Source: Lysobacter sp. | GTDB taxonomy: Bacteria > Pseudomonadota > Gammaproteobacteria > Xanthomonadales > Xanthomonadaceae | Direction of reading: 5' to 3' | NCBI GenBank assembly: GCA_013141175.1 | Contig: JABFRN010000001.1 | Coordinates: forward strand, 2,061,444-2,125,443 | Length of the DNA: 64,000 nucleotides | Shown here: positions 2 to 23,368 of the stretch, piece after piece | Position numbering within the stretch: the stretch's first letter is position 1 | Layout: each line of letters opens with the position of its first letter | The notes under the pieces: generated by a model | What the model was told of the DNA's origin: nothing | What the model saw: only the letters and a program-made list of their open reading frames with translations | The model's database searches: none | Made by a program: the position numbers and the translations under genes

Positions 2-3000
2 ATCGGTTCGCTGAAGAGCAATGTGGGTCATCTGGTGACCGCCGCAGGCGCCGCCGGTCTGATCAAGACCGCGCTGGCCCTGCATCGCGAAACGCTGCCG
101 CCGACGATCGGCTACGCGCGCCCCAATCCGCAGATCGATTTCGAGGCCTCGCCGTTCGTACCGCAGGCCGCACTGCAGGCATGGCCGCGCGGCGCGCAGC
201 CGCGCCGCGCGGGCGTCAGCGCGTTCGGGTTCGGCGGCACCAATGCGCATGTAGTGCTGCAGGAAGCGCCGCTCGCGAACGCATCCGTGCCTTCGCTGCG
301 TCCGCAGCAGCTGTTGACGCTCTCGGCGCGCACGCCGGAAGCGTTGGCCGCGCTGTCGCAGCGCATGGCGGCATATCTCGATGATGCGGATAGCGCCGCA
401 GCGCTGTCCTTCGTCGATATCGCGCACACCGCACGCATTGGCCGGCGCGCATTCGCGTATCGCCGCAGTGTGGTCGCTGCGGATCGCGCCGAAGCTGCGC
501 GATTGTTGCGTGCGACCAGCGTTACCGCCACCGCAGCGGTCACCGATGCACCCGAAGTCGCCTTCCTGTGCCCGGGGCAGGGCGCGCAATACCCGGCGAT
601 GGGTCGCGGCCTGTACGCCGCCGAGCCGGTGTTTCGCGATGCCTACGACGCCTGCTGCGCAGTGCTCGCGCCGCAGATGAAGATCGGTGCGAATACAGCG
701 GACGATGTGCGCGATCTGTTCTTCACCGATGCGCCGGACGTGCTGGTCGCGACGCATCTGACCCAACCGGCGGTGTTCGCGCTGGAATACGCATTGGCGC
801 GGCTGTGGATGTCGTGGGGAGTCGAACCGGGTGCGCTGATCGGCCACAGCGTCGGCGAGTTCGTCTGCGCGACCCTGGCGGGCGTGATGTCGCTGGCCGA
901 TGCGCTGGCGCTGGTCGCGCTGCGCGGGCGGCTGATGCAGGCGCAGCCGGCGGGCAGCATGCTGTCGGTGCGTTTGTCCGCTGATGCGATGTCGCACTAT
1001 CTCGGCGACATCATCGAACTTGCGGCGGAAAATTCGCCTACGCTGTGCGTGGTCGCCGGCCCGACGCCGGATATCGAGCGTCTCGAAGCGCACCTCGCCG
1101 CCGATGGCGTCGCCGCCAAGCGGCTGATGACTTCGCACGCGTTCCACTCGGCGATGATGCAGCCGGTGGTCGCGCCGATGCTGGCGCAGCTGCAGACGAT
1201 GACATTGCACGCGCCGCGGATTCCGATCGTGTCCACGGTGACCGGCGACTGGCTGAGCGATGCCGACGCCCGCGATCCGCAGTACTGGGCGGAGCATCTA
1301 CGTCGCCCGGTGCGCTTCGCGCCTGCCGCGTCGCGCCTGCTCGAAGATCCGAACCGCCTGCTGATCGAAGTCGGCCCGCGCGGAACGCTCGCGACGCTGG
1401 CGAAACAGTGCGCGCCGAAAGGCCGCAGCGGTCAGGTGGCCATCGCCAGCCTCGGCGACAGCGCCGCGCTGGAAACATCGCTGCTCGCGCAGGCGCTGGG
1501 TCAGGCGTGGACGCTCGGCGTCGCGCCCGACTGGAAAGCCTATGTCGCGCGCGAATCGCGTCGTCGCGTGGCGCTGCCGGGCTATCCGTTCGCGCGCGAT
1601 CGGCATTGGGTCGATGCGGTGGCGAAAACCGCGACTGTTATCGAAGCAGCGCCGGTCGCGTTGCACGCTGTCGAACCTGCGAGTGTTGCTGCGCCCGCAG
1701 CTAGCCCGGCTGAAGATCTCGTCGAAGCGAGCGACACGTTGCCGCGTCTGATCGCACTGATCGAAGACGTGTCCGGTTTCGAGATCGGCACCGCCGAAAC
1801 CGATACGCCGTGGCTCGAACTCGGTCTGGATTCGCTCGCGTTGACGCAGTTGGCGCTGCAGCTGCAGCGCGCGTTCCAGGTGAAAGTCACGTTCCGACAG
1901 ATCATGGAACAGTACGGCACGGCGGCGCAGCTGGCGACGCATCTGGACGCGAGCCGCGCACCGGAAAGTTCGACGCCAGCATCCGCCGCAAGCACCGCCC
2001 TGCAGGTCGCTGCACCGCCGACCGGCGGCGACGACAGCAGCGAAGGCCTGATGTCGTACGACGTCAAGAAAGCCTTCGGTGCGATCGCGCGCATCCATAC
2101 CCGCGCCGACGCGATGACGCCGCGACAGCGCACGCGTCTGGATGCGCTGATCGCGCGTTACGTCGCCCGCACCGGAAAATCCAAGATCTACACCACGCAG
2201 CACCGCCAGCGCATGGCCGATCCGCGCGTGGTCAACGGCTTCCGGCCGCTGACCAAGGAGCTGACGTATCAGCTGGTGATCGAACGTTCGCGCAATTCGC
2301 GGATGTGGGATCTCGACGGCAACGAGTACGTGGATGTGCTCAACGGCTTCGGCATGAATCTGTTCGGCTGGCAGCCGGACTTCCTGCGCGACACGTTGCA
2401 CGAGCGCATCGATCTGGGCTACGAGATCGGCCCGCAGCATGTGCTGGCGGGCGAAACCGCCGAACTGTTCGCGGACCTGACCGGCAGCGACCGCGTCGCG
2501 TTCTGCAACACCGGTTCGGAAGCAGTGATGGGCACGATGCGCATCGCGCGCACCGTGACCGGCCGCAGCACCATCGCCATCTTCACCGGCGCCTATCACG
2601 GCATTTTCGACGAAGTGATCGTGCGCGGTACAAAAAAGCTGCGCAGCGTGCCGGCCGCGCCGGGCATCATGCCGTCGACCGCGCAGAACGTGCTGGTACT
2701 GGATTACGGCACCGAGGAATCGCTGCAGATCCTGCGCGAACGCGCGCATGAGCTGGCCGCGATCCTGGTCGAGCCGGTGCAGAGCCGTCGGCCGGATTTC
2801 CAGCCGGTCGAATTCCTGCGCGAGCTGCGCACGCTCACCGAGGAAACCGGTTCGCTGCTGATCTTCGACGAAGTGGTCACCGGCTTCCGCGCGCATCCGC
2901 GCGGCGTGCAGGGCCTGTTCGATATCCAGGCCGATCTCGCCGCCTACGGCAAGGTCGTCGGCGGCGGTTTCTCGATCGGCGTGATCGCCGGCAAGCGCGC

Positions 3001-6000
3001 CTACATGGATGCGCTCGACGGCGGCCACTGGGACTACGGCGACGATTCGGTTCCAACCGTCGGCGTGACTTATTTCGCCGGTACCTTCGTGCGCCATCCG
3101 CTGGCGCTGGCTGCGGCCAAGGCCACCTTGCAGCATCTGCAGGATGCCGGCCCGGACCTGCAGCTGCGGCTCACCGCGCGCACCGCCGGCATGGTCGCGC
3201 GGGTCAACGCGGCGATGGAGGAACTGGGCGCGCCGTTCAAGCTGGTCACGTTCGCGTCGTGGTGGCGGAACGTGTTCACCGAGGATCTGCCCTACGCCGA
3301 TCTGATCTACGTGATGCTGCGCGATCGCGGCATCCACATCCTCGACAATTTCCCGTGCTTCCTGACCACCTCGCACACCGACGAGGACATCGATCTGATC
3401 GTCGCCGCGTACCGCGATGCGGCGGCGGAAATGATCGCCAGCGAATTCTTCCCGGTGCGTCGCAGGGAACAGGCGCTCGCCGAAGACGGCACCCGTGTGG
3501 TGCCGACCACCGAACCGCAGCGCGAAATCTGGCTCGCCGATCAGCTCGGCACCGAGGCTTCGCTGGCGTACAACGAATCGGTCTCGCTGCATCTGCGCGG
3601 CGTGCTCGACGTCGAACGTCTGCGCGCGGCGGTGCAGGCCTTGCCGCAACGTCACGATGCGCTGCGCGCCACGTTCTCCGACGACGGTCTGTGGCTGCGG
3701 ATCCCCGCGCAGGCGGCAGCATTCGAGATCGCGCTGCGCGATGTGTCCGCATCGCAGAAACCGCAGGCGGAACTCGCCGCGATCTGCGAACGTCACGTCT
3801 CCGAACCGTTCGATGTGAGTCGTGGCCCGCTGCTGCGTGCCGAGATCGTGCGGCTTGCGCCCGAGCATCACGTGCTGGTGCTCACCGGCCATCACATCGT
3901 GCTCGACGGCTGGTCGTTCTGGGTGCTGGTGAAGGATCTGGCCGCGCAGTATCGGCCGGACGCCCTTCAAGCCGCAGCGCCTTCGTTCGCCGATTACGCG
4001 GTCGAACAGTCAGCATCGGATGCCGATCCGGCCGACGAACTCGCCTGGTGGATCGCGCAGTTCGCCGACGGCGGACCGGTGCTGGATCTGCCCTGCGATC
4101 GGCCGCGTCCACCGATCCGCACCCAGCGTGCGGGGCGCGAAGATCATGTGCTGCCGGCGGAAATGCTCGCCGGGGTGCGCCAGCTCGGCACGCGTCGCGG
4201 CGCGAGCCTGTTCGCGACCCTGATCGCCGGCTTCTCGGCGCTGCTGCATCGGCTTACCGGGCAGGACGATGTCGTCATCGGCGTGCCCGCCGCAGGGCAG
4301 TCTGCATCGGGGCAGGAGGGTCTGGTCGGACACTGCGTGCACATGCTGCCGCTGCGCATCCAGCCGCACGGCGAACTGCCGTTCGAGCGCTTGATCGATC
4401 AGAGTCGCGGCATCCTGCTCGATGCCTACGATCATCAGCGCATCACCTTCGGCCGACTGCTGCGCGCGCTGCCGATTCCGCGCGAACGCAGCCGTCTGCC
4501 GTTGATGAGCGTGATCTTCAACATCGATCAGGCGCTGACCGGCGAACACGATGCGATGCCGGGATTGCAGCTGGATCTGGACAGCAACGCGCGCCGCTTC
4601 GAAACCTTCGAGCTGTTCGTGAATGCGGTCGATCTCGGCGCCGCCGGCATGCGTCTGGAATGCCAGTACAACGCCGACCTGTTCGATGCGCAGACGGTCG
4701 CACGCTGGCTCTCGGGATTCGAGCTGCTGCTGCGCGCTGCGGTCGCCGATGTCGGCAGCCCCCTCGATGCGCTGTCCGTGCTCACGCCCGAAGACCAACG
4801 GTCGATCGATGCCTGGAACGCGACCGACGCCGACTATCCGCGCGAGACCCGGATCGAAGCGCTGATTCTCGATCAAGCGTGCCGCACGCCGGATGCCATC
4901 GCCGTGACAGCGGGGTCGAAGCATCTGACCTATGCGCAGCTCGCCGATCGCAGTGCGGCGATCGCGATCGCTTTGCAGGCGGCCGGCGTCCAGCGCGGCG
5001 ACCGGGTTGGTCTGCTATTGGAACGCGATCTGGAATTGTTGCCCGCACTGCTCGGCGTGCTGCGCGCGGGGGCCTGCTATGTGCCGCTGGATCCGGCGCT
5101 GCCGGAAGAACGGCTGGGCTTCATGGTCGAGGACGCGCAGCTGCGCATCCTGCTGGGCGATGCGGCATCGATGGCGCGGTTCGACAGCGTCTTGGCATCG
5201 ATCGCGCAACTGCATCTGCACGGCATTCACGATCGCAGCGACACCGCGTTGCGCGATGCCGGCGCTGACGCCGAGGACGATGCGTACATCATCTACACCT
5301 CGGGCTCGACCGGTCGTCCCAAAGGCGTGCGTGTCCGCCATCGCAATGTCGCCAATCTGCTCGCGAGCATGCGGCGCACGCCGGGCATGCAGGCGCAGGA
5401 CGTTGTCCTCGCGGTCACCACGCTGGCGTTCGATATTGCGGTGTGCGAACTGATCCTGCCGCTGTCGGTCGGTGCGACCGTGGTGCTCGCCGACCGCCGC
5501 GACGCGGCGGATGCCGACCGTCTGCGCGCGCTGCTCGACACGCATCGTGTCAACATCATGCAGGCCACGCCCGCGACCTGGCGCCTGCTGCTCGAATCGG
5601 GCTGGCGCGGCCATCCGGGACTCAAGGCCCTGAGCGGCGGCGAACCGCTCGCGGCGGATCTCGCCGCCGCGCTGCTGCCCTGCGTCGCCGAGCTGTGGAA
5701 TGTCTACGGACCGACCGAAACCACGGTCTGGTCGAGCCATCATCGCGTCGTCGACGCGGACGCACCGATTCCGATCGGCGTGCCGTTGGCGAATACGCGG
5801 CTGCTGGTGCTCGATGCGCATCGTCAGCCGGTGCCGGTCGGCGTCGTCGGCGAACTGTATATCGGCGGCGACGGCGTGGCCTGCGATTATCTCAATCGTC
5901 CGGAGCTGACCGCCGAACGTTTCGTCCCCGATGCGGACGGCCAGCCGCTGTACCGCACCGGCGATCTCGCGCGCTGGCGTCGCGATGGCGTGGTCGAGTG

Positions 6001-9000
6001 CCTGGGCCGCACCGACTTCCAGGTGAAGCTGCGCGGTTACCGCATCGAACTGGGCGAAATCGAACAGGTGTTGATGACGCATCCGGATATCGCGCAGGCG
6101 GTAGTGGTCACCCACGAACCGCGTCCGGGCGATCTGCGTCTGATCGCCTATGTCGTCGCGAACCCGGACTCGGCGTTCGACGGCAGTCGCGCCAGCGAGG
6201 ACGGTCTGCGCGCGCATGCCGAAAAACTCTTGCCCGAATACATGCTGCCGCAGCGCTGCATCGCGCTGCCGGTGTTGCCGTTGACCGTCAGCGGCAAGAT
6301 CGACCGCAAGGCGCTGCCGGCGCCTATCGACGCATCGCCGTCGATCGACAGCGGTGAACCCGAACATTTCTCCGACGTCTGGCAGGCGCAGGTCGCGCAG
6401 CAGTATCGCGACGCGCTGGCGCTGCCCCGGATCGGCCCGCACGACGATTTCTTCGCGCTCGGCGGGCATTCGCTGCTCGCGGCGCAACTGGCGGCGAAGC
6501 TCGGTCGCGAGCTGGACCGTCACGTGCCGATGCGCGTGGTGTTCGATCATCCGACCGTCGCCGGTCTTGCGGCATGGCTGGCCGCGCAGGAAGCGACGAC
6601 GCTGCCGACCGTTGCGGTGCTTGCGAAAGACGAACGCGCGCCGCTGTCGCTGATGCAGCAGCGGATCTGGTATCTGGAACAGCTGCATCCGGGCCGCACC
6701 GTCTACAACGTGCCGTCGGCGCACCGTCTGCGCGGCGCGCTGGATCGCGATGCGCTGTCACGCGCTTTCGCCGGAATGGTGCGGCGTCAGGCCGCGCTGC
6801 GTACGACGATCGGCATGCACGAGGGCGAACCCTTCCAGCAGCTGCACGAGACGGTCGATACCGCGCTGCGCTTCGAGGATCTGACCGGCATTGCCGTCGA
6901 CGCGCGCGAAGCGGAGCTGGCGCTGCGGATGGAGGACGAGATCGCGGTGCCGTTCGATCTCGCGCGCGGGCCGCTGTTCTGCGCCTGCGTCTACAAACTC
7001 GGCGACGACGAGCATGTGATGTTCTTCATGGCCCATCACGCGATCTGGGACGGCTGGTCCTTCGATCTGTTCTATACCGAAATGGCCGCGCTCTACGACG
7101 CCAACCGCCAGGGCCGCGAACCGTCGCTGGCGCTGCCGCCGGTGAGCTATGCCGATTTCTCGGCATGGCATCGCGAATGGATGGCCGGGCCGGAGTTGAC
7201 GCGACAGCTCGATCACTGGCGCGGCAAGCTGCAGGGCATGCCCGAAGCGCTGGCGCTGCCGACCGACAAGCCGCGACCGGCGACCCAGAGCGGCGACGGC
7301 GACACCGCGTGGCTGCGCGTACCGACCGGCACCGCCGATGCGCTGCGCGCACTGGCGCAGCGCGAAGGCTCGACGCTGTTCACGGTGCTGCTGTCGGCGT
7401 GGACGCTGCTGCTGCACCAGCTCAGCGGACAGCGCGACCTGATCATCGGCACGCCCGTGCGCGGACGCAATCTGCCCGAACTCGAACCGGTGATGGGCTT
7501 CTTCGTCAATGCGCTGCCGCTGCGATTGCGGGTCGATCCCGCGCAGGGCTTCCGCAGTCTGCTGCAACTGGTGCGCGTGGAGATGATCGATGCGCTGGGC
7601 TGCCAGGACGTGCCGTTCGAGCATCTCGTGCGCGTGCTCGGCACGCACCGCGATACCAGCCGCTTCCCGATCTACCAGGCGTTCTTCTCGTACCAGGATG
7701 CGCGTCAGCGGCCGTGCCGCTGGAGCGATCTTGCGCACGCCAACGTGCCGGTGTTCCAGCCGGCGGCGGCGCAGGATGTCGCGCTGTGGTTCCTCGACGG
7801 CGCCGACGGTCTGGTCGGCGGCCTGAACTACAACACCGACATCCTGATCGCCGACACCGCGACGCTGCTGGTGGATCGTTATCTCGCGCTGCTCGACGGG
7901 CTCGTCGATGCACTCGCGAATGCGTCGCAGGACGTGCCGCTGCGCGCGCTGCTGTCGATGACGCCTGCGGAATCGGCGCGCCTCGCATCGTGGAACGCGA
8001 CGGCCACGCCGATGCCCGACGACCGCGATCTGTCGCATTATCTCGACGACGCCATCGCCCGCCACGGCGATCACGCGCAGGTGCTGTCGACCGACGGTGC
8101 GATCACCCACGCCGCGCTGTCGGCGCAGGCCGATCGCGTCGCCACCGCGCTGCGCGTGCGCGGCATCGGCAACGGCGCGGTCGTCGGTCTGCATCTGCAG
8201 CGCTCGCCGGCGATGCTCGCGGCGATGCTCGGCGTGCTGCGCACCGGTGCCGCGTACCTGCCGCTCGATCCCGGATTCCCGGCCGAACGGTTGAAGTTCA
8301 TGGTCGCGGATGCCGACGCGGCGCTGGTGATCGACGACAGCGACAACGATCTCGGACTCGACGCCGCGCATCGGCTGACGCTCGACGATGCGCTCGCGAC
8401 AGAAGACATCGCAGGACTGCGGTCCGATCATCGCAATGCCGATGCGCTCGCGTATCTGATCTACACCTCGGGTTCGACCGGAAAACCCAAAGGCGTGCGC
8501 GTGCCGCAGCGCGCGGTGATCAACTTCCTGGAGTCGATGCGGATCGCGCCGGGGCTCGACGCATCATCGCGCCTGGCTGCCGTCACCACGCTGTCGTTCG
8601 ATATCGCCGTGCTCGAACTGCTGCTGCCGCTGGCGGTCGGCGCGGATCTGGTGCTGGTCGCGCGCGACGAGGCCAGCGACGGCGTCGCACTGCGCGCGCT
8701 GTTGGAACGCCACAACGTCGACACCCTGCAGGCGACGCCGAGCACATGGCGACTGCTGCTGGAATCCGGCTGGCGCGGCGGGCCGCAGTGGAAAGCGCTG
8801 TGCGGCGGCGAAGCCTTGCCGGCCGATCTGGCCGAAGCGCTGCTGCCGCGCGTCGGTGCGCTGTGGAACATGTACGGCCCGACCGAAACCACGGTCTGGT
8901 CCACGTGCGCGCAGGTCCGGCCGGGGCAGGGCGAGATCGTCGTCGGCCGGCCGATCGCGAATACGCAGGTGCATGTGCTCGACGACGACGGCGCGACCGT

Positions 9001-9868
9001 GCCGATCGGCGTGAGCGGAGAACTGGTGATCGCCGGTGCCGGGGTGACGCTGGGTTACCACGGGCGCGATGAACTCACTGCAGAGAAATTCATCGCCGAC
9101 GCATTCGCCGATGCCGCGACGCCTGGCGCGCGCATGTATCGCACCGGCGATCTCGGACGCTGGCGCAGCGATGGCCAGCTGCAGCATCTCGGCCGCCTCG
9201 ACCAGCAGATCAAACTGCGCGGCTACCGCATCGAAACCGGGGAAATCGAAAGCATCCTCGCGCGCCATCCGGATGTCGCGCAGGTGGTCGTGGTCGCGGC
9301 GGTGCGCAGCAGCGAGGATGCGATCCTCGCGGCGTACATCGTGCCGCGCGCGGGTGCGGGCGTCGACGGCAATACGCTGCGCGCGCATCTGCGCGGAGAG
9401 CTGCCGGACTACATGCTGCCCACGGCGTGGATCGAGATCGCACAGGTGCCGACCACGCCCAACGGCAAGGTCGACCGCAATGCGCTGCCGCCGATCGCAT
9501 CCACGACATCCGCCGCCAGGCCGCGTCTGTCGCAGGCGCCATCGACGCAGAGCGAACGCTGGCTCGCGGAGATCTGGCGCGAACTGCTCGGCGTGGACGC
9601 CATCGGCGCGCAGGACAACTTCCTCGATCTGGGCGGTCATTCGCTGTTGATCATGCGCGCGGTCGCGATGCTGCAGACGCGCCACGGCGTGAGTCTCAGC
9701 CCGCGTGCGTTCGTGTTCCAGACCTTGGCGCAGACTGCGATGGAATGCGATGCGCAGATGGGCACGGGCGCGACGGGCGATGCTGCGCGAGCGCCGGCGA
9801 ACGAGGAGGCGCCGTCCGGCGGATTCTTCGGGCGCCTGCTGTCGCGGTTCGGAAAACGCCGGGCGTGA
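2..9868 (+). CDS. Hybrid PKS-NRPS megasynthase, 5' end missing (KS-AT-ACP-AMT-C-A-PCP-C-A-PCP)
   Basis: The first codons read IGSLKSNVGHL, the end of a ketosynthase, so the start lies outside the window. Domains in order: acyltransferase at about 550-1480 (GHSVGE active site, HAFH motif typical of malonyl-CoA use); ACP near 1830 (LGLDSL); class III aminotransferase at about 2200-3480, with a PLP-lysine region AYGKVVGGG near 2945; condensation domain with HHIVLDG near 3890; adenylation domain with YTSGSTGRPKG near 5290 and NVYGPTE near 5700; PCP with GGHSLL near 6460; second condensation domain (HHAIWDG near 7036); second adenylation domain (YTSGSTGKPKG near 8460); second PCP (GGHSLL near 9630). 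The protein ends about 80 residues later with a basic tail and no thioesterase. The PKS-aminotransferase-NRPS order is known from iturin/mycosubtilin and microcystin enzymes, where a beta-keto group becomes a beta-amine. Product unknown. Confidence 0.96.
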   Translation: MGSLKSNVGHLVTAAGAAGLIKTALALHRETLPPTIGYARPNPQIDFEASPFVPQAALQAWPRGAQPRRAGVSAFGFGGTNAHVVLQEAPLANASVPSLRPQQLLTLSARTPEALAALSQRMAAYLDDADSAAALSFVDIAHTARIGRRAFAYRRSVVAADRAEAARLLRATSVTATAAVTDAPEVAFLCPGQGAQYPAMGRGLYAAEPVFRDAYDACCAVLAPQMKIGANTADDVRDLFFTDAPDVLVATHLTQPAVFALEYALARLWMSWGVEPGALIGHSVGEFVCATLAGVMSLADALALVALRGRLMQAQPAGSMLSVRLSADAMSHYLGDIIELAAENSPTLCVVAGPTPDIERLEAHLAADGVAAKRLMTSHAFHSAMMQPVVAPMLAQLQTMTLHAPRIPIVSTVTGDWLSDADARDPQYWAEHLRRPVRFAPAASRLLEDPNRLLIEVGPRGTLATLAKQCAPKGRSGQVAIASLGDSAALETSLLAQALGQAWTLGVAPDWKAYVARESRRRVALPGYPFARDRHWVDAVAKTATVIEAAPVALHAVEPASVAAPAASPAEDLVEASDTLPRLIALIEDVSGFEIGTAETDTPWLELGLDSLALTQLALQLQRAFQVKVTFRQIMEQYGTAAQLATHLDASRAPESSTPASAASTALQVAAPPTGGDDSSEGLMSYDVKKAFGAIARIHTRADAMTPRQRTRLDALIARYVARTGKSKIYTTQHRQRMADPRVVNGFRPLTKELTYQLVIERSRNSRMWDLDGNEYVDVLNGFGMNLFGWQPDFLRDTLHERIDLGYEIGPQHVLAGETAELFADLTGSDRVAFCNTGSEAVMGTMRIARTVTGRSTIAIFTGAYHGIFDEVIVRGTKKLRSVPAAPGIMPSTAQNVLVLDYGTEESLQILRERAHELAAILVEPVQSRRPDFQPVEFLRELRTLTEETGSLLIFDEVVTGFRAHPRGVQGLFDIQADLAAYGKVVGGGFSIGVIAGKRAYMDALDGGHWDYGDDSVPTVGVTYFAGTFVRHPLALAAAKATLQHLQDAGPDLQLRLTARTAGMVARVNAAMEELGAPFKLVTFASWWRNVFTEDLPYADLIYVMLRDRGIHILDNFPCFLTTSHTDEDIDLIVAAYRDAAAEMIASEFFPVRRREQALAEDGTRVVPTTEPQREIWLADQLGTEASLAYNESVSLHLRGVLDVERLRAAVQALPQRHDALRATFSDDGLWLRIPAQAAAFEIALRDVSASQKPQAELAAICERHVSEPFDVSRGPLLRAEIVRLAPEHHVLVLTGHHIVLDGWSFWVLVKDLAAQYRPDALQAAAPSFADYAVEQSASDADPADELAWWIAQFADGGPVLDLPCDRPRPPIRTQRAGREDHVLPAEMLAGVRQLGTRRGASLFATLIAGFSALLHRLTGQDDVVIGVPAAGQSASGQEGLVGHCVHMLPLRIQPHGELPFERLIDQSRGILLDAYDHQRITFGRLLRALPIPRERSRLPLMSVIFNIDQALTGEHDAMPGLQLDLDSNARRFETFELFVNAVDLGAAGMRLECQYNADLFDAQTVARWLSGFELLLRAAVADVGSPLDALSVLTPEDQRSIDAWNATDADYPRETRIEALILDQACRTPDAIAVTAGSKHLTYAQLADRSAAIAIALQAAGVQRGDRVGLLLERDLELLPALLGVLRAGACYVPLDPALPEERLGFMVEDAQLRILLGDAASMARFDSVLASIAQLHLHGIHDRSDTALRDAGADAEDDAYIIYTSGSTGRPKGVRVRHRNVANLLASMRRTPGMQAQDVVLAVTTLAFDIAVCELILPLSVGATVVLADRRDAADADRLRALLDTHRVNIMQATPATWRLLLESGWRGHPGLKALSGGEPLAADLAAALLPCVAELWNVYGPTETTVWSSHHRVVDADAPIPIGVPLANTRLLVLDAHRQPVPVGVVGELYIGGDGVACDYLNRPELTAERFVPDADGQPLYRTGDLARWRRDGVVECLGRTDFQVKLRGYRIELGEIEQVLMTHPDIAQAVVVTHEPRPGDLRLIAYVVANPDSAFDGSRASEDGLRAHAEKLLPEYMLPQRCIALPVLPLTVSGKIDRKALPAPIDASPSIDSGEPEHFSDVWQAQVAQQYRDALALPRIGPHDDFFALGGHSLLAAQLAAKLGRELDRHVPMRVVFDHPTVAGLAAWLAAQEATTLPTVAVLAKDERAPLSLMQQRIWYLEQLHPGRTVYNVPSAHRLRGALDRDALSRAFAGMVRRQAALRTTIGMHEGEPFQQLHETVDTALRFEDLTGIAVDAREAELALRMEDEIAVPFDLARGPLFCACVYKLGDDEHVMFFMAHHAIWDGWSFDLFYTEMAALYDANRQGREPSLALPPVSYADFSAWHREWMAGPELTRQLDHWRGKLQGMPEALALPTDKPRPATQSGDGDTAWLRVPTGTADALRALAQREGSTLFTVLLSAWTLLLHQLSGQRDLIIGTPVRGRNLPELEPVMGFFVNALPLRLRVDPAQGFRSLLQLVRVEMIDALGCQDVPFEHLVRVLGTHRDTSRFPIYQAFFSYQDARQRPCRWSDLAHANVPVFQPAAAQDVALWFLDGADGLVGGLNYNTDILIADTATLLVDRYLALLDGLVDALANASQDVPLRALLSMTPAESARLASWNATATPMPDDRDLSHYLDDAIARHGDHAQVLSTDGAITHAALSAQADRVATALRVRGIGNGAVVGLHLQRSPAMLAAMLGVLRTGAAYLPLDPGFPAERLKFMVADADAALVIDDSDNDLGLDAAHRLTLDDALATEDIAGLRSDHRNADALAYLIYTSGSTGKPKGVRVPQRAVINFLESMRIAPGLDASSRLAAVTTLSFDIAVLELLLPLAVGADLVLVARDEASDGVALRALLERHNVDTLQATPSTWRLLLESGWRGGPQWKALCGGEALPADLAEALLPRVGALWNMYGPTETTVWSTCAQVRPGQGEIVVGRPIANTQVHVLDDDGATVPIGVSGELVIAGAGVTLGYHGRDELTAEKFIADAFADAATPGARMYRTGDLGRWRSDGQLQHLGRLDQQIKLRGYRIETGEIESILARHPDVAQVVVVAAVRSSEDAILAAYIVPRAGAGVDGNTLRAHLRGELPDYMLPTAWIEIAQVPTTPNGKVDRNALPPIASTTSAARPRLSQAPSTQSERWLAEIWRELLGVDAIGAQDNFLDLGGHSLLIMRAVAMLQTRHGVSLSPRAFVFQTLAQTAMECDAQMGTGATGDAARAPANEEAPSGGFFGRLLSRFGKRRA

Positions 9869-10243: not shown

Positions 10244-11050
10244 TCAATCGAGAACGAAGTAATACCCGCTGTAGGCATCGATGTCGCGTCCGCGTGTGTG
10301 CGGGATGCGGCACGAGGTTTCGCGATTGGTCCAGTCGTCGACCGCGCGATAGCCCAGCGCGGTGATGCCGGCGACGAATTCGTCGCGGTTGCCGATCCGG
10401 TACGGATGGAACGCGCGGCCGGTGGACTGCACGGTGACGAAGGTGTCGCCGTCGTACAGCGGCATCTTGTTGATCAGCAGATGCTGCGGACGCGCGCCCA
10501 TCTTCGCGAGGATATCGGCCAAGCTCATGTCGACGTACTGCAGCGAGCCGGCGGCCATGAAGATGGTGGTGTCGCTGCCGGTGGCCAGGTCGTCGGTGAA
10601 GAACAGGCCGTCGGCCTGCTGTTCCCGGGCGAAGGCCTGGCCTTCGCGGACGATCGCCGGCATGTCGCAGATCGTCCAGCGCATCCCGGGCGGGTAGTGC
10701 AGGTAACGCTTCCAGCCGTAGTGGCTGACGCCGATGTGGCCGCCGAAATCGAGCAGCCGCGTTTGTGCGTTCAACAGGTCGCGTAGCCAGAACAGCACCG
10801 CGTAATCGCTCTGGCAGGCTTTCTGGATGCGGTCGCGGTACATCCCGGCCAGGGCGTCGTGGTCGTAGCCTACGCGGCTGCCTTCCGGAATGGCCGCTTC
10901 GGCTTCGGCGAAGCTGGCGTGCACGCCGCGAAATCGGCCGCGCGGCATCTTCGCGAAGCTGCGCGCATCGTCCATGGCCAGCACGCTGCCGACGATGGGA
11001 ATGCGCCACGCATTGCGCGCGACGCGTTCCGAAAAATCGATTATTCCCAT
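10244..11050 (-). CDS. Putative methyltransferase, TIGR04325 family
   Basis: This 268-residue protein has a SAM-site-like segment LLDFGGHIGVSHYGW followed by WTICDMPAIV, the layout of the TIGR04325 'putative methyltransferase' family found in surface-polysaccharide and other biosynthetic loci. The ATG at 11050 was chosen because a GGTGGAG box lies just upstream; the 52 codons of open frame before it look non-coding and would run into the divergent gene. It converges on the synthetase and diverges, 44 bases away, from the cupin-like gene. It could methylate the synthetase product or a sugar; neither substrate nor activity can be read from the sequence. Confidence 0.75.
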   Translation of the reverse strand: MGIIDFSERVARNAWRIPIVGSVLAMDDARSFAKMPRGRFRGVHASFAEAEAAIPEGSRVGYDHDALAGMYRDRIQKACQSDYAVLFWLRDLLNAQTRLLDFGGHIGVSHYGWKRYLHYPPGMRWTICDMPAIVREGQAFAREQQADGLFFTDDLATGSDTTIFMAAGSLQYVDMSLADILAKMGARPQHLLINKMPLYDGDTFVTVQSTGRAFHPYRIGNRDEFVAGITALGYRAVDDWTNRETSCRIPHTRGRDIDAYSGYYFVLD

Positions 11051-11094: not shown

Positions 11095-12006
11095 ATGACC
11101 ACGACCGATCGCCGCGCTGTCGTCGATGTCCCCGCATTCGCCCCATGGGCGATCGGTGCGGTGACCCACCGGCTGTGCGGGCATCCACTGCTGGGCATCG
11201 ACGCATTGGTCGAACTGGGCCAGCGCCTGGAAGCCCGCAGTCTCGTCCGCACCCACAGCGACGAAGCCACGGCCGGCAGTTCCTTCAGCGATGCGCCCAA
11301 CCTGCATCCCAACCGGCGCGACGCGGCGGCCACCCTCGCGGGAATCGCCGACGCGCATGCGTGGATGTCGCTGCTGAATGTGCAGGCCGATCCGGTCTAT
11401 CGGCGACTGGTCGACGAAGTGCTGGACGCGCTCAAGCCCATGGTCGACCGTCATGATCCGGGCATGTGCTTTCGAGGCGGCTGGATCTTCGTCAGCTCGC
11501 CCGGCGCGGTCACGCCCTTCCACATCGACCACGAGCACAATTTCATTCTGCAGATCGCCGGCCGCAAGCGGCTTCATGTCTGGGATCCGTTCGATCGCGA
11601 AGTGGTCACGGAGCGCGCGCTGGAGCTGTTCCACGAGCAGAACTCGCGCGAGAAGATCGCGTGGGACGAATCCTTCCGCAGTCGCGCGCGGATCTTCGAT
11701 CTCGAACCCGGGCAGGGCGGCTACATGCCGTCCACCTCGCCGCACATGGTCGAGAACGGAAGCGAACCGTCGATCACCATGAGCTTCACCTATTACACCG
11801 ACAGTACGCGTCGTCGCGAGCTGTTGTATCGCGGCAACGACAAACTGCGACGGATGGGCATCGAGCCGCGCCCGGTCGGCGCATCGGCGCTGGCGGACCG
11901 AAGCAAGGCCTTGTTGCTGGGGGCGTACACGGGCATCCATGCGGGCATCAAGCGCCGCCTGGGTCGTGGCGTGCGCGACAACACGGTCGCCTACGCCCCG
12001 GCCTGA
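11095..12006 (+). CDS. JmjC/cupin-like Fe(II)/2-oxoglutarate oxygenase-type protein
   Basis: This 303-residue protein carries FHIDHEHN near residue 143 and a later SPHMVENG. Together they provide the HxD...H iron-binding pattern of the cupin-8/JmjC hydroxylase-like family. Such proteins typically hydroxylate peptide side chains or small molecules. The ATG at 11095 gives a start immediately after the short divergent promoter region shared with the methyltransferase gene. Position next to the end of a peptide synthetase makes a tailoring role (for example amino acid hydroxylation) possible, but relatives also sit in unrelated loci. Substrate unknown. Confidence 0.75.
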   Translation: MTTTDRRAVVDVPAFAPWAIGAVTHRLCGHPLLGIDALVELGQRLEARSLVRTHSDEATAGSSFSDAPNLHPNRRDAAATLAGIADAHAWMSLLNVQADPVYRRLVDEVLDALKPMVDRHDPGMCFRGGWIFVSSPGAVTPFHIDHEHNFILQIAGRKRLHVWDPFDREVVTERALELFHEQNSREKIAWDESFRSRARIFDLEPGQGGYMPSTSPHMVENGSEPSITMSFTYYTDSTRRRELLYRGNDKLRRMGIEPRPVGASALADRSKALLLGAYTGIHAGIKRRLGRGVRDNTVAYAPA

Positions 12007-12133: not shown

Positions 12134-13639
12134 CTACCGCATGCGGCTACGCAACTTCGTCGCCAGCATCCGCACGACGTTGGCATCCGCCTCATCGAGG
12201 CCGCGCAGCAGCCAGATCGAGAGCGGATAGCCGATCGCGAATACCACCGTGCCGGCCAGCAGTCCCGACAATGGCGGGAACGACCGCGCGATCGGTATGC
12301 AGCACAGCGCCGGCAGCGTCGCCGCCGCGGAGATCCGCAGCAGCCGCGCCCACGGCATGCCGGTGCCCGAGACGCGCATGGCCAGCAGGATGGTGACCGC
12401 CGATCCCGACAGCGCCAGCACCATCGTCGAGAAGATCGCGCCGGTCAGGCCGAACGCATACGTGCAGGCGAACGCGCCGATCAGGCGCAGCGCGGAGAAC
12501 GACAGGGTGAGCCGCATCAACGCGGTCTGGCGGTCGGCGCTCATCAGGAAAGCGGTCGCGCCCTGGCCGAGCACGCTGGCCACGCGCGCGATCAACAGCA
12601 CGATCAGCACCGGCGCGGCTTCGGCATAGGCACTGCCGTACAGCCACTCGATCGCGTGGTCGGCAAACACCGCGCCGGCCGCGATCAGCGGTGCGCCCAG
12701 CACGTACAACCACACGGTCATCTCGACGAAACGCCGGTTCGCTTCGCCCTGGCTCCGTCCCTGTGCGCTGGCCATCATCGGCAACAGCTGGGCGCTGAGG
12801 ATGCCCGGCAGCAACAGCGCCACGCCCGATGCCACCGCGTTGGCGACCTTGAACAAGCCGGCATGCGCGGCATCGCTGAGCAGATTGAGCGACAGCAGTT
12901 CGATCTCGCTGCTGCCGATGGTGCCGAACACCGTCGTGAACGCGACCACGCGCAGGTGGTGGCGCATCCGCGTTTCCAGTTCCGGCGACAAGGTCGCTGC
13001 GCTGTCGGTCGCGATGCGCGCGAAGCGCGATGCCCGCCATTGCGAGACCAGATAGAACACCAGGCTCGACAGCGCGTAGACCTCGACGAAGGTTTGCAGC
13101 GATGCGGCTTTCATCCACGCGAGGATCACCAGCGCGAGGTTCAGGCTCGCGCCGATCACGGCGATGATGGCGGTGGATCGAAAATCCTGTCCGCCCTTCA
13201 GCACCGCGATGTTGAACATGTACGGCGCGCGAAACGCGATCGAAAGGATCAACAGGCCGAGCAGCCACAGATCGACGCCCGGCGCGATCCGGCCATGCGC
13301 GAACGCGAAGATCGCGCACAGCACCACGATCACCACCAGCAGCATGTTGCGCTGCATCCGTCGCAGCCGGCGCACCAGTACCGCAGTGGCGTCGTCGCGG
13401 CCGGCGCCGCGCAGTTCGGCGATGAACTTGATCGCGGCCATGGTGATGCCGGCATTGGCGACCACGATCGCATTGGCCGCGACCCACACCAGCAGGCTGT
13501 AGATGCCCATGTCGGTGGGCAGCAGCGCCCGCGCGATCACGATCGATGCGATCAGGCCGAACAGATATTCGATATACAGCGCCAGCGACGAATAGGCGGT
13601 GTTGGACAGTGCGCGACTCATCAGCGGGCGCCCGGCCAT
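12134..13639 (-). CDS. Polysaccharide flippase (Wzx/MATE-like)
   Basis: The 501-residue product is almost entirely hydrophobic, with about twelve to fourteen predicted membrane spans, and opens with SRALSNTAYSSLALYIEYLFGLIASIVIAR-type sequence typical of the oligosaccharide flippase family (MOP/MVF superfamily). Such proteins turn lipid-linked glycans, sometimes peptides, across the inner membrane. The start could be the ATG at 13639 or the one at 13621; neither has a clear ribosome binding site. It is followed downstream only by the convergent oxygenase gene, and no glycosyltransferase or polymerase gene is next to it, which is unusual for a complete O-antigen locus. Confidence 0.85.
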   Translation of the reverse strand: MAGRPLMSRALSNTAYSSLALYIEYLFGLIASIVIARALLPTDMGIYSLLVWVAANAIVVANAGITMAAIKFIAELRGAGRDDATAVLVRRLRRMQRNMLLVVIVVLCAIFAFAHGRIAPGVDLWLLGLLILSIAFRAPYMFNIAVLKGGQDFRSTAIIAVIGASLNLALVILAWMKAASLQTFVEVYALSSLVFYLVSQWRASRFARIATDSAATLSPELETRMRHHLRVVAFTTVFGTIGSSEIELLSLNLLSDAAHAGLFKVANAVASGVALLLPGILSAQLLPMMASAQGRSQGEANRRFVEMTVWLYVLGAPLIAAGAVFADHAIEWLYGSAYAEAAPVLIVLLIARVASVLGQGATAFLMSADRQTALMRLTLSFSALRLIGAFACTYAFGLTGAIFSTMVLALSGSAVTILLAMRVSGTGMPWARLLRISAAATLPALCCIPIARSFPPLSGLLAGTVVFAIGYPLSIWLLRGLDEADANVVRMLATKLRSRMR

Positions 13640-20629: not shown

Positions 20630-21949
20630 TCACGGCGACGGCGGTGGAGACGGCGATCGCGGGCGCTTGGTGCCTTTGCGCGGCGGCGAATCTGGTGCCG
20701 CGGCTGCCGCACCCGCACCCGCACCCGCACCGCCCACGGCAGGTCCACCGCGCAGGAACGTCAATGCGGTGCTGGTGCGCACGTCGGCTTGCGCATAGGC
20801 CATCTGTGGGCGGATATGGGCGGGCATCGCGACGATGGTGGGTGCGAGGTCGGTGGGCACCACTTCGTGCGCACCTGCGCCAACGCGGGGATGCAGCGTG
20901 GCCGATGGCACCGCGCCGACGCGTACTTGTGCGTGCGTGGGTTCTGCGCCGGCAAGATACTGGGCAGTTGCATCCCTGCCGACTTCGCCCATGTGCACAG
21001 CCTGCGCCATGTAAGCAGTGCGGGCCTGGTTCACCGCAGCGCCATGATGCGGTGCGGCGGCGACGCCGGCGTCGCGCGCGGGTGACGGAGCGGCCCACTC
21101 CGGTTCGGCGAGCGGTGTCATCAGGCTTCTGGCCATTTGCCGTTCGGCGCCGACATCGGCCGGAGGCAGTGCGGCCGGAGGCAAAGCCAGCGGTGGAGGA
21201 TCGATGTAGCCGCCGCCGTGCGCCATCGAATCCCGGCGCGGCGAGGGCAACGCCACCTGTGCAAGCGATGCGGGCGACAGCAGCGCAGCGGCATCGAACA
21301 CGTTCGCTTTCACATGTTCGCGGCGTTCGTGGATATTGCTGGACAGCGCATCGACCGCTTCGGGCATCCTCAGATTGCCGTTGCCGCCGGGCTGCGCCAA
21401 TGCCGGAAAGCCGTGATCCAGCGCCGCGCGCAGTTCGGGCCCGGGCAGGCTGACATGCAGCTGCGAGGACGCCATATGCACGGCGGTGGACAGCACGCTG
21501 GGCGGCGCTGCGGCCGTTGCCTGATCGCGGAAACCCAAGACCGATGCACGCAAGGCCTCATGCGCAGGCGCCTGGTCGGCATATCCGCGCACCGGGGCTT
21601 TGCGGTGTTGATCCTGCGCGAGTGCGCCGGAGTGCGGCGCAAGCGCGACATGGGTGCGCATCTCGGTCAATGCATCATCGACGCCCGGGCGCAGGCCCAG
21701 CGGATTGCGCGCCGGTGCGACGGCAGGTGCGGCAAGGGCAGGTGCAGGGAGCGCAGCTGCAGCGACGGGCGGAACAAAGGCTGCGCCCGCGCTCACGGCC
21801 GGACCCGGCAGCGGCGCCGCATGCATCGTCGCGCCCGCACCCAGCTGCGGTGTGGGGATGGCCGGCAAGGGCGCGTGTGGCGGCGTGCCCGGAAAGGGAG
21901 ACAGCCCCGATCCGCCCGATCCGCCCGATCCACTCGAAGGTGCGCTCAT
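20630..21949 (-). CDS. Large Pro/Ala-rich low-complexity protein with basic C-terminal motif
   Basis: The 439-residue protein begins MSAP followed by a Gly/Ser run, then long Pro/Ala-rich sequence with alternating short ordered segments (for example VDDALTEMRTHVALAPHSG). It has no signal peptide or membrane span and no Cys. The last residues read RKGTKRPRSPSPPPSP, resembling a eukaryotic nuclear localisation signal with SP sites. The gene follows a second Pro-rich gene on the same strand, 97 bases behind the likely stop of that gene; both products start with MSAP. Frames on the opposite strand are Arg/Cys-rich and look like shadows. Function unknown; a translocated effector is one possibility. 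Confidence 0.68.
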   Translation of the reverse strand: MSAPSSGSGGSGGSGLSPFPGTPPHAPLPAIPTPQLGAGATMHAAPLPGPAVSAGAAFVPPVAAAALPAPALAAPAVAPARNPLGLRPGVDDALTEMRTHVALAPHSGALAQDQHRKAPVRGYADQAPAHEALRASVLGFRDQATAAAPPSVLSTAVHMASSQLHVSLPGPELRAALDHGFPALAQPGGNGNLRMPEAVDALSSNIHERREHVKANVFDAAALLSPASLAQVALPSPRRDSMAHGGGYIDPPPLALPPAALPPADVGAERQMARSLMTPLAEPEWAAPSPARDAGVAAAPHHGAAVNQARTAYMAQAVHMGEVGRDATAQYLAGAEPTHAQVRVGAVPSATLHPRVGAGAHEVVPTDLAPTIVAMPAHIRPQMAYAQADVRTSTALTFLRGGPAVGGAGAGAGAAAAAPDSPPRKGTKRPRSPSPPPSP

Positions 21950-22046: not shown

Positions 22047-22835
22047 TCAGAGTTTGCTCTGGAACTGTACGCGTGCTCCGGTCAAAGGTGGGCCCGGTGG
22101 CGCATCGCCGCGTTGGCTCGGGGTGAGCCTGACCGGTGTCGCAAGCGCCGGCAGGGGGGCCGGTCTGGGAGCCACAGCGACCGGCGGTAACGGGGCAGCA
22201 CCCGCTGCCGATCCTGCATGTGGCGCGACGACGGCAGGGAGCAGTGGGGCCGCAAGCGCTTCGGCTCGGGCTTTGTAGCGCGGCATCACGTACGTATCCG
22301 GCGGTGCTCCGACGAACGGGCTCAATGTCGCCGTGCGGCGTTCTGCATTCGAGGTCGGCAGGATCGGCGGCGCCAGCCTGCTGTCCGGACCGATGTCGTA
22401 TCGATGGCGCGTGGGGTAGTTGCCGGCCGGCAGGCCATCCGGCATGGCCGCGTGCGGCGCCGGCCGCACATCCGTCACATGCGGGACATGGACAGGATCC
22501 GCTCTGCGCGTGATGTGCGGAAAGGGCGCCTGCGCGCCCGACAGCGCGGTGGGGTGATAGAAGCGATCCCCGGCCGGAGCATCCTGCGTATACAAGGGCA
22601 TCGCGTCCACGAGCGCGCGCCCGGTCGGCGCGGGTCCGCGAACGTTCTGGACGGCTTGATGCATGGCGCGGGACACCTGCGCCAATGCAGCGCCATCGTC
22701 GAGCGAAAGAAAATCCGCGATGCCCCGGCCCTCGCCTTGCAGCAAGGCCGCCAACGCAGGCGGTGCCGCAGGAACAGCAGCGGCGCCGCTTGGACTCGCA
22801 GCGGACTTCGGTTTCTTGGGCGGAGGTGCGGACAT
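22047..22835 (-). CDS. Pro-rich protein with F-box-like segment and basic N-terminus
   Basis: From the ATG at 22835 (weak GAGAG upstream; the open frame runs 25 codons further to 22910) the protein has about 262 residues. It opens MSAPPPKKPKS, a cluster like a monopartite nuclear localisation signal. Near residues 35-65 it carries GIADFLSLDDGAALAQVSRAMH, similar to the LxxLxxxDLxxLxxVSR core of F-box domains. The rest is Pro/Ala-rich with conserved-looking tyrosine and histidine segments. F-box proteins in bacteria are usually effectors that hijack host ubiquitin ligases; here this is only inferred from the motif. It probably forms a unit with the downstream Pro-rich gene. Confidence 0.65.
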   Translation of the reverse strand: MSAPPPKKPKSAASPSGAAAVPAAPPALAALLQGEGRGIADFLSLDDGAALAQVSRAMHQAVQNVRGPAPTGRALVDAMPLYTQDAPAGDRFYHPTALSGAQAPFPHITRRADPVHVPHVTDVRPAPHAAMPDGLPAGNYPTRHRYDIGPDSRLAPPILPTSNAERRTATLSPFVGAPPDTYVMPRYKARAEALAAPLLPAVVAPHAGSAAGAAPLPPVAVAPRPAPLPALATPVRLTPSQRGDAPPGPPLTGARVQFQSKL

Positions 22836-23368
22836 GGGCTCTCGTTCGTCATCGTTATCGAAGGTGTCGACCGCACAGGGAATTCGCGACTTGCGCGGGG
22901 ACATGCGCACTGCCGCAACCGACAGCGCCAGAACTGCAGAGACACATCAAGTTCCGTGCCAACCCTGCGTGCCCATCGAAGTCGCTGAATTCACGCGGTT
23001 CGCGAGCGGGATCGAAGATCCGGCCCGGCCGCAGGGTGTGCGTTTCCACTCACCCACGGTGAAGCATCCGACGCGGTGCGCATCCTGGCCTGGATGGAAT
23101 CCGCGTGTGCAATCAAGGGTTTGAGCGGATGGCTTCGGTGCGATACCACGCAATTGCAGGGCATGTGCGGAAATGCCCTGCGTGGGTGAATCCCGACCAT
23201 GCTCGGGCGACGATGGATACCCGCTGCGATGCCGTGCGGATCAGGCCGGAAACGTCAGCCGCCGACGCATGTCCGGAGGCAGCCGCATAGGGCGTGCTCA
23301 AGCACGCCTTCCGGGAGTGCCGCATTCGACCAGTGGATTTGGTGCTGGCCCGGTTGCGGAACCCCAGG
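22836..23368. other. 533-base gap with two hairpins
   Basis: No gene was recognised. A 9-base perfect stem (23156-23181, GCAGGGCAT and its complement) and a palindrome at 23291-23308 (GGCGTGCTC and its complement) followed by TT are present. The second lies just after the stop of the minus-strand DUF2058 gene and may be its terminator; a related sequence occurs near 24568. Confidence 0.5.

Follow-up and report, generated by a model that had tools for sequence, protein, structure and literature searches.

A Lysobacter PKS-NRPS that ends in a carrier protein and a conserved hydrolase pair that may off-load its peptide

Synthases of the iturin/mycosubtilin and microcystin types contain a block of ketosynthase (KS), acyltransferase (AT), acyl carrier protein (ACP), and aminotransferase (AMT) domains that yields a beta-amino acyl unit and is followed by nonribosomal peptide synthetase (NRPS) modules. 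The same arrangement is present in a polyketide synthase (PKS)-NRPS hybrid of Lysobacter sp., encoded at one edge of the DNA analyzed here (the window: 64,000 nucleotides, G000:C1:2061444-2125443, of one 4,155,120-bp contig). However, unlike those systems, this synthase is loaded by an adenylation (A)-peptidyl carrier protein (PCP) module and ends in a PCP and a tail, with no thioesterase (TE) in the gene or next door, and the difference that the original prediction, made from the letters of the window, had drawn from iturin- and microcystin-type systems is real. Short NRPS genes of condensation (C)-A-PCP-TE type that overlap a glycosyltransferase gene are described for Xanthomonas albilineans (XALc_0364 and XALc_1145, the former with a Gly signature) in the part of PMC3849588 available to us; they differ from the synthase here in having one module and their own TE and in lacking PKS and AMT domains. 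META-B of Xanthomonas was set aside as a counterpart, since in the same part of that source its C-A-PCP modules come with a TE and with no PKS or AMT. The Lysobacter synthase is probably not incomplete and instead belongs to a recurrent PCP-ended design, for which two adjacent hydrolase-like genes, here named hyd1 and hyd2, most likely carry out release.

The open reading frame at 2..9868 (+) is open to the window edge, which cuts the gene in mid-KS. Since the window is internal to the single contig, the gene does not lie at a contig end, and the complete frame (L007:3356-16312) reaches upstream of the window, with a likely start at genome position 2058601, 2.8 kb upstream, giving a protein of 4236 amino acids (aa). 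The full domain order is A-PCP-KS-AT-ACP-AMT-C-A-PCP-C-A-PCP. Pfam finds three AMP-binding, two Condensation, and four PP-binding stretches along with the KS, the AT, and a class III aminotransferase (PF00202), and it finds no PF00975 thioesterase in the full synthase; the last 600 aa contain AMP-binding, AMP-binding_C, and PP-binding only. The KS motif (TACSTS), the AT motifs (GHSVGEF and HAFH), the AMT motifs (FDEVVTGF and YGKVVGGG), the C-domain motifs (HHIVLDG and HHAIWDG), and four carrier-protein serine motifs are all intact. These results bear out the claims that an AMT-containing PKS-NRPS ends in a PCP without a TE, and that it has a HAFH-type AT, a class III aminotransferase after the ACP, and two NRPS modules; the short basic tail at its end and the lack of synthetase genes next downstream were likewise confirmed. 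Retrieval of the upstream sequence, which had been proposed as a check, brought to light the A-PCP loading module together with hyd2 and hyd1, and the notion of an enzyme that starts at its KS had to be given up. An assembly break or rearrangement, raised as a way in which the claim could fail, does not fit a single contig and an arrangement that recurs in other genera.

The two hydrolase-like proteins are mutually homologous in a profile comparison (hhalign, 98.8%). In alignments, hyd1 has a Cys at the nucleophile elbow and keeps a C-terminal His in 21/21 proteins, and the Cys elbow is found in four further hyd1 proteins (G031, L090, L094, and L121); the elbow residue of hyd2 is Arg in 21/21 aligned proteins, with no invariant His among 17. 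AlphaFold2 models of the pair from L092 (mean pLDDT, 80.9 for hyd1 and 90.4 for hyd2) display the alternating strands and helices expected of alpha/beta hydrolases, to which the solved structures nearest hyd1 by sequence also belong. In one relative (G037), the synthase polypeptide continues past its last PCP into a fused hyd2 and has no basic tail. Single frames of 575-620 aa in L190, L192, L193, and L195 contain an Arg elbow and then a Cys elbow and are apparently hyd2-hyd1 fusions.

The best NCBIfam matches are TIGR03100 (hydrolase 1, exosortase A system-associated) for hyd1, at 95.4 bits, and TIGR03101 (hydrolase 2, exosortase A system-associated) for hyd2, at 104.3 bits. Both scores fall short of the curated cut-offs (168.45 and 202.75, respectively), and we know of no biochemistry for hyd1 or hyd2; these two points count against the role proposed below. 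Among six TIGR03100 matches above the cut-off, three have the Cys elbow (L184, L185, and L188) and three have no clear elbow by pattern (L186, L187, and L189), and hyd2-like frames in L186 and L190 have the Arg. We found no described function for the exosortase-associated hydrolase pair, and our literature searches, judged by title and the start of the abstract, listed no report on PKS-NRPS genes in exosortase exopolysaccharide clusters or on hydrolases of the hyd1/hyd2 type. A search of PMC1569441 restricted to a few keywords gave no match, and the available part of PMC4687298 counts NRPS/PKS in a Luteimonas without linking them to exosortase exopolysaccharide.

Relatives were drawn from two sources. 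When 99 genomes were searched with the AMT region, 16 of them, this genome included, had strong matches (at least 395 bits); the clusters of 11 of the 16 and of the related, AMT-less G024 were read first, and those of G014, G072, G088, G089, and G069 and of the AMT-less G015 and G017 were read later. Named genome contigs were also scanned, and the best 80 loci were kept; in 30 of these (L137, L138, and L140-L167) our own models detected neither KS nor C nor A domains, and they were left out. The other 50, sorted beforehand with our own TE model, comprise 13 PCP-ended loci, 22 TE-ended loci, and 15 that were left out for another architecture or the lack of a readable end (L108, L113, L114, L116, L117, L122, L123, L125, L128-L132, L134, and L135). 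Ten AMT-bearing PCP-ended synthases from G-numbered genomes and the 13 from named contigs make up the 23 counted below. The end of the synthase runs off the contig in G004, G072, and G088 (AMT synthase), and for the AMT synthase of G069 nothing was called on L236; the L101 synthase is broken into several frames as called, and its PCP end is basic. In agreement with the sorting, PF00975 was found in all 19 TE-ended C-termini scanned (the 22 less L104, L120, and L133) and in 2 of 21 PCP-ended ones (a set that leaves aside G093, L101, and L121), namely, L092 and G054.

The presence of hyd1 follows the PCP end closely. It was found with 23/23 AMT-bearing PCP-ended synthases, versus a match of at least 150 bits in 1/22 genomes with TE-ended ones, a distribution expected if the pair stands in for the TE rather than editing. 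The pair adjoins the synthase in this genome and in another of the same genus (G004). In other genera, hyd2 and then hyd1 come directly after the last PCP (G037, G054, G055, G028, G047, G042, and G024), as they do in L088, L089, L091, L092, L107, L115, and L139 and in G014, G089, G015, and G017; a phosphopantetheinyl transferase gene lies between synthase and pair in L093, L097, and L101, and about 20 kb of the same cluster separate the pair from the synthase in G093 and G078. Two of these pair-bearing loci come from culturable strains, L091 from Lysobacter concretionis DSM 16239 and L093 from Xenophilus azovorans DSM 13620. No hyd1 was seen near the synthase in G031, L090, or L094, and whole-genome searches located it at 312, 258, and 211 bits, respectively; in L121, from another phylum (Planctomycetota), it is also found elsewhere in the genome (217 bits). 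These distant hyd1 genes are adjoined by an Arg-elbow hyd2 in G031, L090, and L121, and in L094 a hyd2 with an unclear elbow is present. The sole TE-ended genome at or above 150 bits is L110 (202 bits), in which the pair lies beside a separate A-PCP reading frame (L217). A Fisher test on these counts (23/0 versus 1/21) gives 5.8e-12, on rows that are related to one another.

The partnership between synthase and pair is well supported by these counts and by the PCP-hyd2 fusion. Of the two fates predicted for the chain, release by another protein agrees with the pair found directly upstream, while hand-over to a distant synthetase is not supported, a PCP end being normal in relatives and accompanied by hyd1 in 23/23 AMT-bearing cases. 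A missing downstream synthetase was also rejected, given the single contig, the absence of such a gene next door, and the recurrence of the PCP end. Separately, L234:9837-17267 encodes a second synthase (called as KS-AT-A-PCP, with no AMT seen); its tail is basic, and the next genes are hyd2 and hyd1.

Several observations weigh against an exchange of TE for hydrolase pair. Both the pair and a TE are present in L092 and G054, which are close relatives; the TE lies between two PCPs and is followed by a PCP with a basic tail and then by hyd2/hyd1 (L092:11512-17640 and L075:12074-18172). In the TE-ended L118 and L119, frames of 638 aa match hyd1 weakly (91 and 87 bits). Among the loci left out of the counts, L108, where no C domain was seen, and L129, where the last protein is C-PCP with no TE seen, lack a hyd1 match above 25 bits; L129 is a counterexample if it is PCP-ended. 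Finally, the AMT tree (39 rows, without L121 and five further TE-ended genomes, and with labels from our own sorting) yields 2 independent contrasts on well-supported branches, so that a sign test of TE/hydrolase exclusion cannot reach significance. One contrast is informative and speaks for the exchange: inside the pair-bearing clade of this tree, L096 has a TE, and its genome has no hyd1 match above 28 bits.

The basic end of the synthase is also shared. All 21 tabulated PCP-ended synthases, this one included, have a net positive end (+1 to +7 over 22 residues; the table leaves out G037 and G089), frequently of the form G-[WFLM]-x-x-R-[LIM]-[FL]-G-[RK], and the ends of L101 and L121 are basic as well. 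The tail is not universal, as G089 (L235) has the pair and no obvious basic tail. Five other NRPS proteins of this genome have acidic PCP ends (-4 to -5), and 10 of 13 listed non-terminal subunits from TE-type and related systems have basic ends. Because basic ends occur on non-terminal subunits and the tail is missing from the PCP-hyd2 fusion, a docking role fits. To judge by these sequences, docking is at least as likely as membrane binding, and a tail that serves as a membrane anchor only is, on the same grounds, not favored.

Specificity codes read from the alignment, with the last K assumed, are DALWFGGTFK for A1, DICQLGVVWK for A2, and DILQLGMVWK for A3, which we take to resemble Val, Gly, and Gly codes. 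On this reading of the codes, the product is likely a Val-derived beta-amino acyl-Gly-Gly. Among PCP-ended relatives, A1 varies (Val-, Pro-, or Thr-like, with another code in L092 and G054), and the Gly-like code after the AMT is mostly kept (exceptions: L090, L093, and L097). A point against the proposal below is that the last module is without an A domain in several relatives: AMP-binding was found in 12/21 PCP-ended C-termini, and the clusters of L088, L093, L094, L097, G055, G031, and G042 have a last module of C and PCP with no A as called.

We give about an even chance to the proposal that hyd1 and hyd2 off-load the peptide from the TE-less synthase, most likely onto a glycan. A1 would load a Val-like amino acid, the KS-AT-ACP segment would extend it with malonate, the AMT would turn the beta-keto group into a beta-amine, and A2 and A3 would add two Gly-like residues. 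Because there is no TE, the finished short peptide would remain as a thioester on the last PCP. There, hyd2, with its Arg elbow and no invariant His, may act as a noncatalytic partner that binds the terminal PCP, the basic tail of the synthase being its docking element, and hyd1 would use its Cys nucleophile and conserved His to take over the peptide as an acyl-enzyme. It would then pass the peptide to an acceptor, the likeliest candidate being an amine or hydroxyl group on a glycan of the envelope or on a lipid-linked glycan. A cupin and a methyltransferase encoded at the locus could tailor the peptide before or after transfer, and a Wzx-like flippase would export the product.

The setting of many relatives makes a glycan acceptor plausible, and the case for it is weakest in this very genome. 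With our own models, a homologue of EpsB_2, taken as a marker of exosortase A (XrtA)-type exopolysaccharide genes, was found in 9/9 clusters read with wide flanks and in G031 and G015. At the named loci, whose flanks were read over no more than 10 kb, strong EpsB_2 matches accompany 5/13 PCP-ended synthases versus 0/22 TE-ended ones, and two TE-ended clusters (L124 and L136) give weak matches of 137 and 157 bits. The G054 cluster, the sole one tested with NCBIfam, has the XrtA-type polysaccharide genes TIGR03013, TIGR03007, TIGR03016, and TIGR03027 above their curated cut-offs. In the L090 genome, the pair adjoins a polysaccharide-export-type outer-membrane protein. Other observations count against a glycan. 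EpsB_2 lies beside 16/29 PCP-ended synthases and not all of them, with unequal flanks (the 29 are the 23 with an AMT, G014 and G089, and the AMT-less G024, G015, G017, and G069). The XrtA-type polysaccharide genes of this genome are at 2753-2792 kb, about 690 kb from the synthase, and include the only TIGR03013 match (at 2753433) and a flippase of their own, with no hyd1/hyd2 seen there. Exopolysaccharide marker genes had no match in L006, L008, or L009 or in the rest of the window, and in G004 the readable side of the synthase showed no exopolysaccharide genes.

These last observations also feed the strongest rival, a possible but doubtful one, in which hyd1 and hyd2 release a free acid, a lactam, or a macrolactam. 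The peptide would then be a secreted metabolite of the ordinary kind, and coregulation or chance linkage would account for the exopolysaccharide setting of many relatives. Here and in G004 the locus lies outside any exopolysaccharide cluster seen, the 22 TE-ended sister synthases have no strong EpsB_2 match within 10 kb, and hydrolytic free-standing type II TEs are known (available part of PMC8748450). However, EpsB_2 and export genes surround many relatives, the flippase is present at this locus too, and NCBIfam matches the pair best to exosortase-A-associated hydrolases. We tentatively suggest, at somewhat less than even chances, that a bacterial family attaches a nonribosomal beta-amino peptide to a polysaccharide that is exported, or to its lipid-linked precursor. 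The transferase that takes the peptide over from the TE-less PKS-NRPS would consist of two alpha/beta hydrolases, one of Cys type and one, noncatalytic, of Arg type.

It is unlikely that hyd1 and hyd2 only edit misprimed PCPs and that true release occurs in trans, through a free-standing TE or a synthetase at another locus, or that a shuttle of the CmaE/LgnA kind moves the chain to another carrier protein. The genome does encode a free-standing TE-like protein at 3685506 (239 aa as called) and other NRPS loci without a PF00975 match (G000:C1:1113-1130 and 3167-3176 kb; L062-L064), and TE-like proteins can shuttle chains between carrier proteins, according to the part of PMC8748450 available. 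Editing would be hard to reconcile with the retention of hyd1 beside PCP ends, its rarity in TE-ended genomes, and the hyd2 fused behind the terminal PCP in G037. Loss of the TE by truncation, leaving the gene a relic, is very improbable, in spite of the missing TE and a position outside an exopolysaccharide cluster, given the full-length frame, the presence of all checked motifs, and the similar PCP end and basic tail in 21/21 tabulated synthases.

Several neighbors of the synthase (Table 1) have counterparts in relatives. A TIGR04325-like gene adjoins the cupin gene and the synthase in L090 and is fused to the cupin in L109, and a homologue of the Cupin_8/JmjC-type protein is encoded close to the synthase in G093, G078, G055, L088, L090, and L091. 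The flippase, too, has homologues, one that is 42% identical in the exopolysaccharide cluster of G078 and one that follows the L090 synthase. Further upstream, in the row of ACP-like protein, KS, and FabD-like protein, the discrete KS has GGASAS at the active-site region in place of the usual Cys motif; the row presumably resembles an acetyl-ACP supply trio. Its role as a part of the machine is unsupported, as a separate KS/FabD counterpart was found in 0 of the other 11 clusters searched, the ACP not being included in that search. The window also contains two adjacent Ala/Pro-rich reading frames (20630-21868 and 22047-22910). Elsewhere in the genome, a class III aminotransferase that is 39% identical to the AMT (G000:C1:3823285-3824523) is encoded near a KS-containing protein with a weak TE match (L067).

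Table 1. Positions of the synthase domains and neighboring genes (window coordinates unless marked otherwise)
Feature	Position	Strand	Remark
KS, C-terminal part	2-301	+	approximate in-window stretch
AT	512-1591	+	approximate in-window stretch
ACP	1712-1981	+	approximate in-window stretch
AMT	2090-3409	+	approximate in-window stretch
C (first)	3482-4831	+	approximate in-window stretch
A (Gly-like)	4856-6331	+	approximate in-window stretch
PCP	6362-6595	+	approximate in-window stretch
C (second)	6626-7951	+	approximate in-window stretch
A (Gly-like)	7982-9496	+	approximate in-window stretch
Terminal PCP	about 9557-9733	+	approximate in-window stretch
Basic C-terminal tail, GGFFGRLLSRFGKRRA	9818..9865	+	behind last PCP
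TIGR04325-family methyltransferase	10244..11050	-	possible start 11206
Cupin_8/JmjC-type protein, possible 2-oxoglutarate oxygenase	11095..12006	+	Pfam
MOP/Wzx-like flippase (PF01943)	12134..13639	-	
hyd2	genome 2057726-2058538; L006:16283-17095	+	outside window, directly upstream of synthase, same direction
hyd1	genome 2056805-2057722; L006:15362-16279	-	outside window, upstream of synthase, divergent
ACP-like protein (read by eye), KS, and FabD-like protein in a row	genome about 2053903-2056733; L006:12460-15290		upstream

The reading given here places an apparently incomplete synthetase in a recurrent system whose release mechanism can be tested. Should a glycan be the acceptor, the chemistry of nonribosomal peptides would form part of a biofilm or envelope matrix, and such clusters would be misread in genome mining as broken metabolite pathways. 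The polysaccharide-decoration reading, if true, would further suggest that exosortase-A-associated hydrolases 1 and 2 transfer carrier-protein-bound acyl groups to polysaccharide.

Among known systems, the TE-ended sisters (e.g., in Pedobacter, Spirosoma, Winogradskyella, Nostoc, Chamaesiphon, and Rhizobium) have a related front of A-PCP and KS-AT-ACP-AMT, in one or two proteins, with AMTs 47-61% identical in 21/22 cases and 66% identical in L096 and, in many, a Gly-like code in the following A domain. They differ in the PF00975 TE of every C-terminus scanned and in hyd1 matches that stay below 150 bits in 21/22 genomes. The XrtA-associated hydrolases share the Cys elbow of hyd1 in some members; unlike members of TIGR03100 and TIGR03101, hyd1 and hyd2 score below the cut-offs, and here they are partnered with a PKS-NRPS through its PCP. 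CmaE and SyrC presumably have an alpha/beta-hydrolase fold and a Cys nucleophile. Like hyd1 and hyd2, CmaE, SyrC, and LgnA are separate proteins, and the resemblance is one of function, likened by description and not by sequence: the three take an aminoacyl group from a carrier protein, with LgnA doing so through an acyl-enzyme, as described in the available part of PMC8748450. LgnA differs in being a Ser enzyme, and all three differ in moving an amino acid between carrier proteins.

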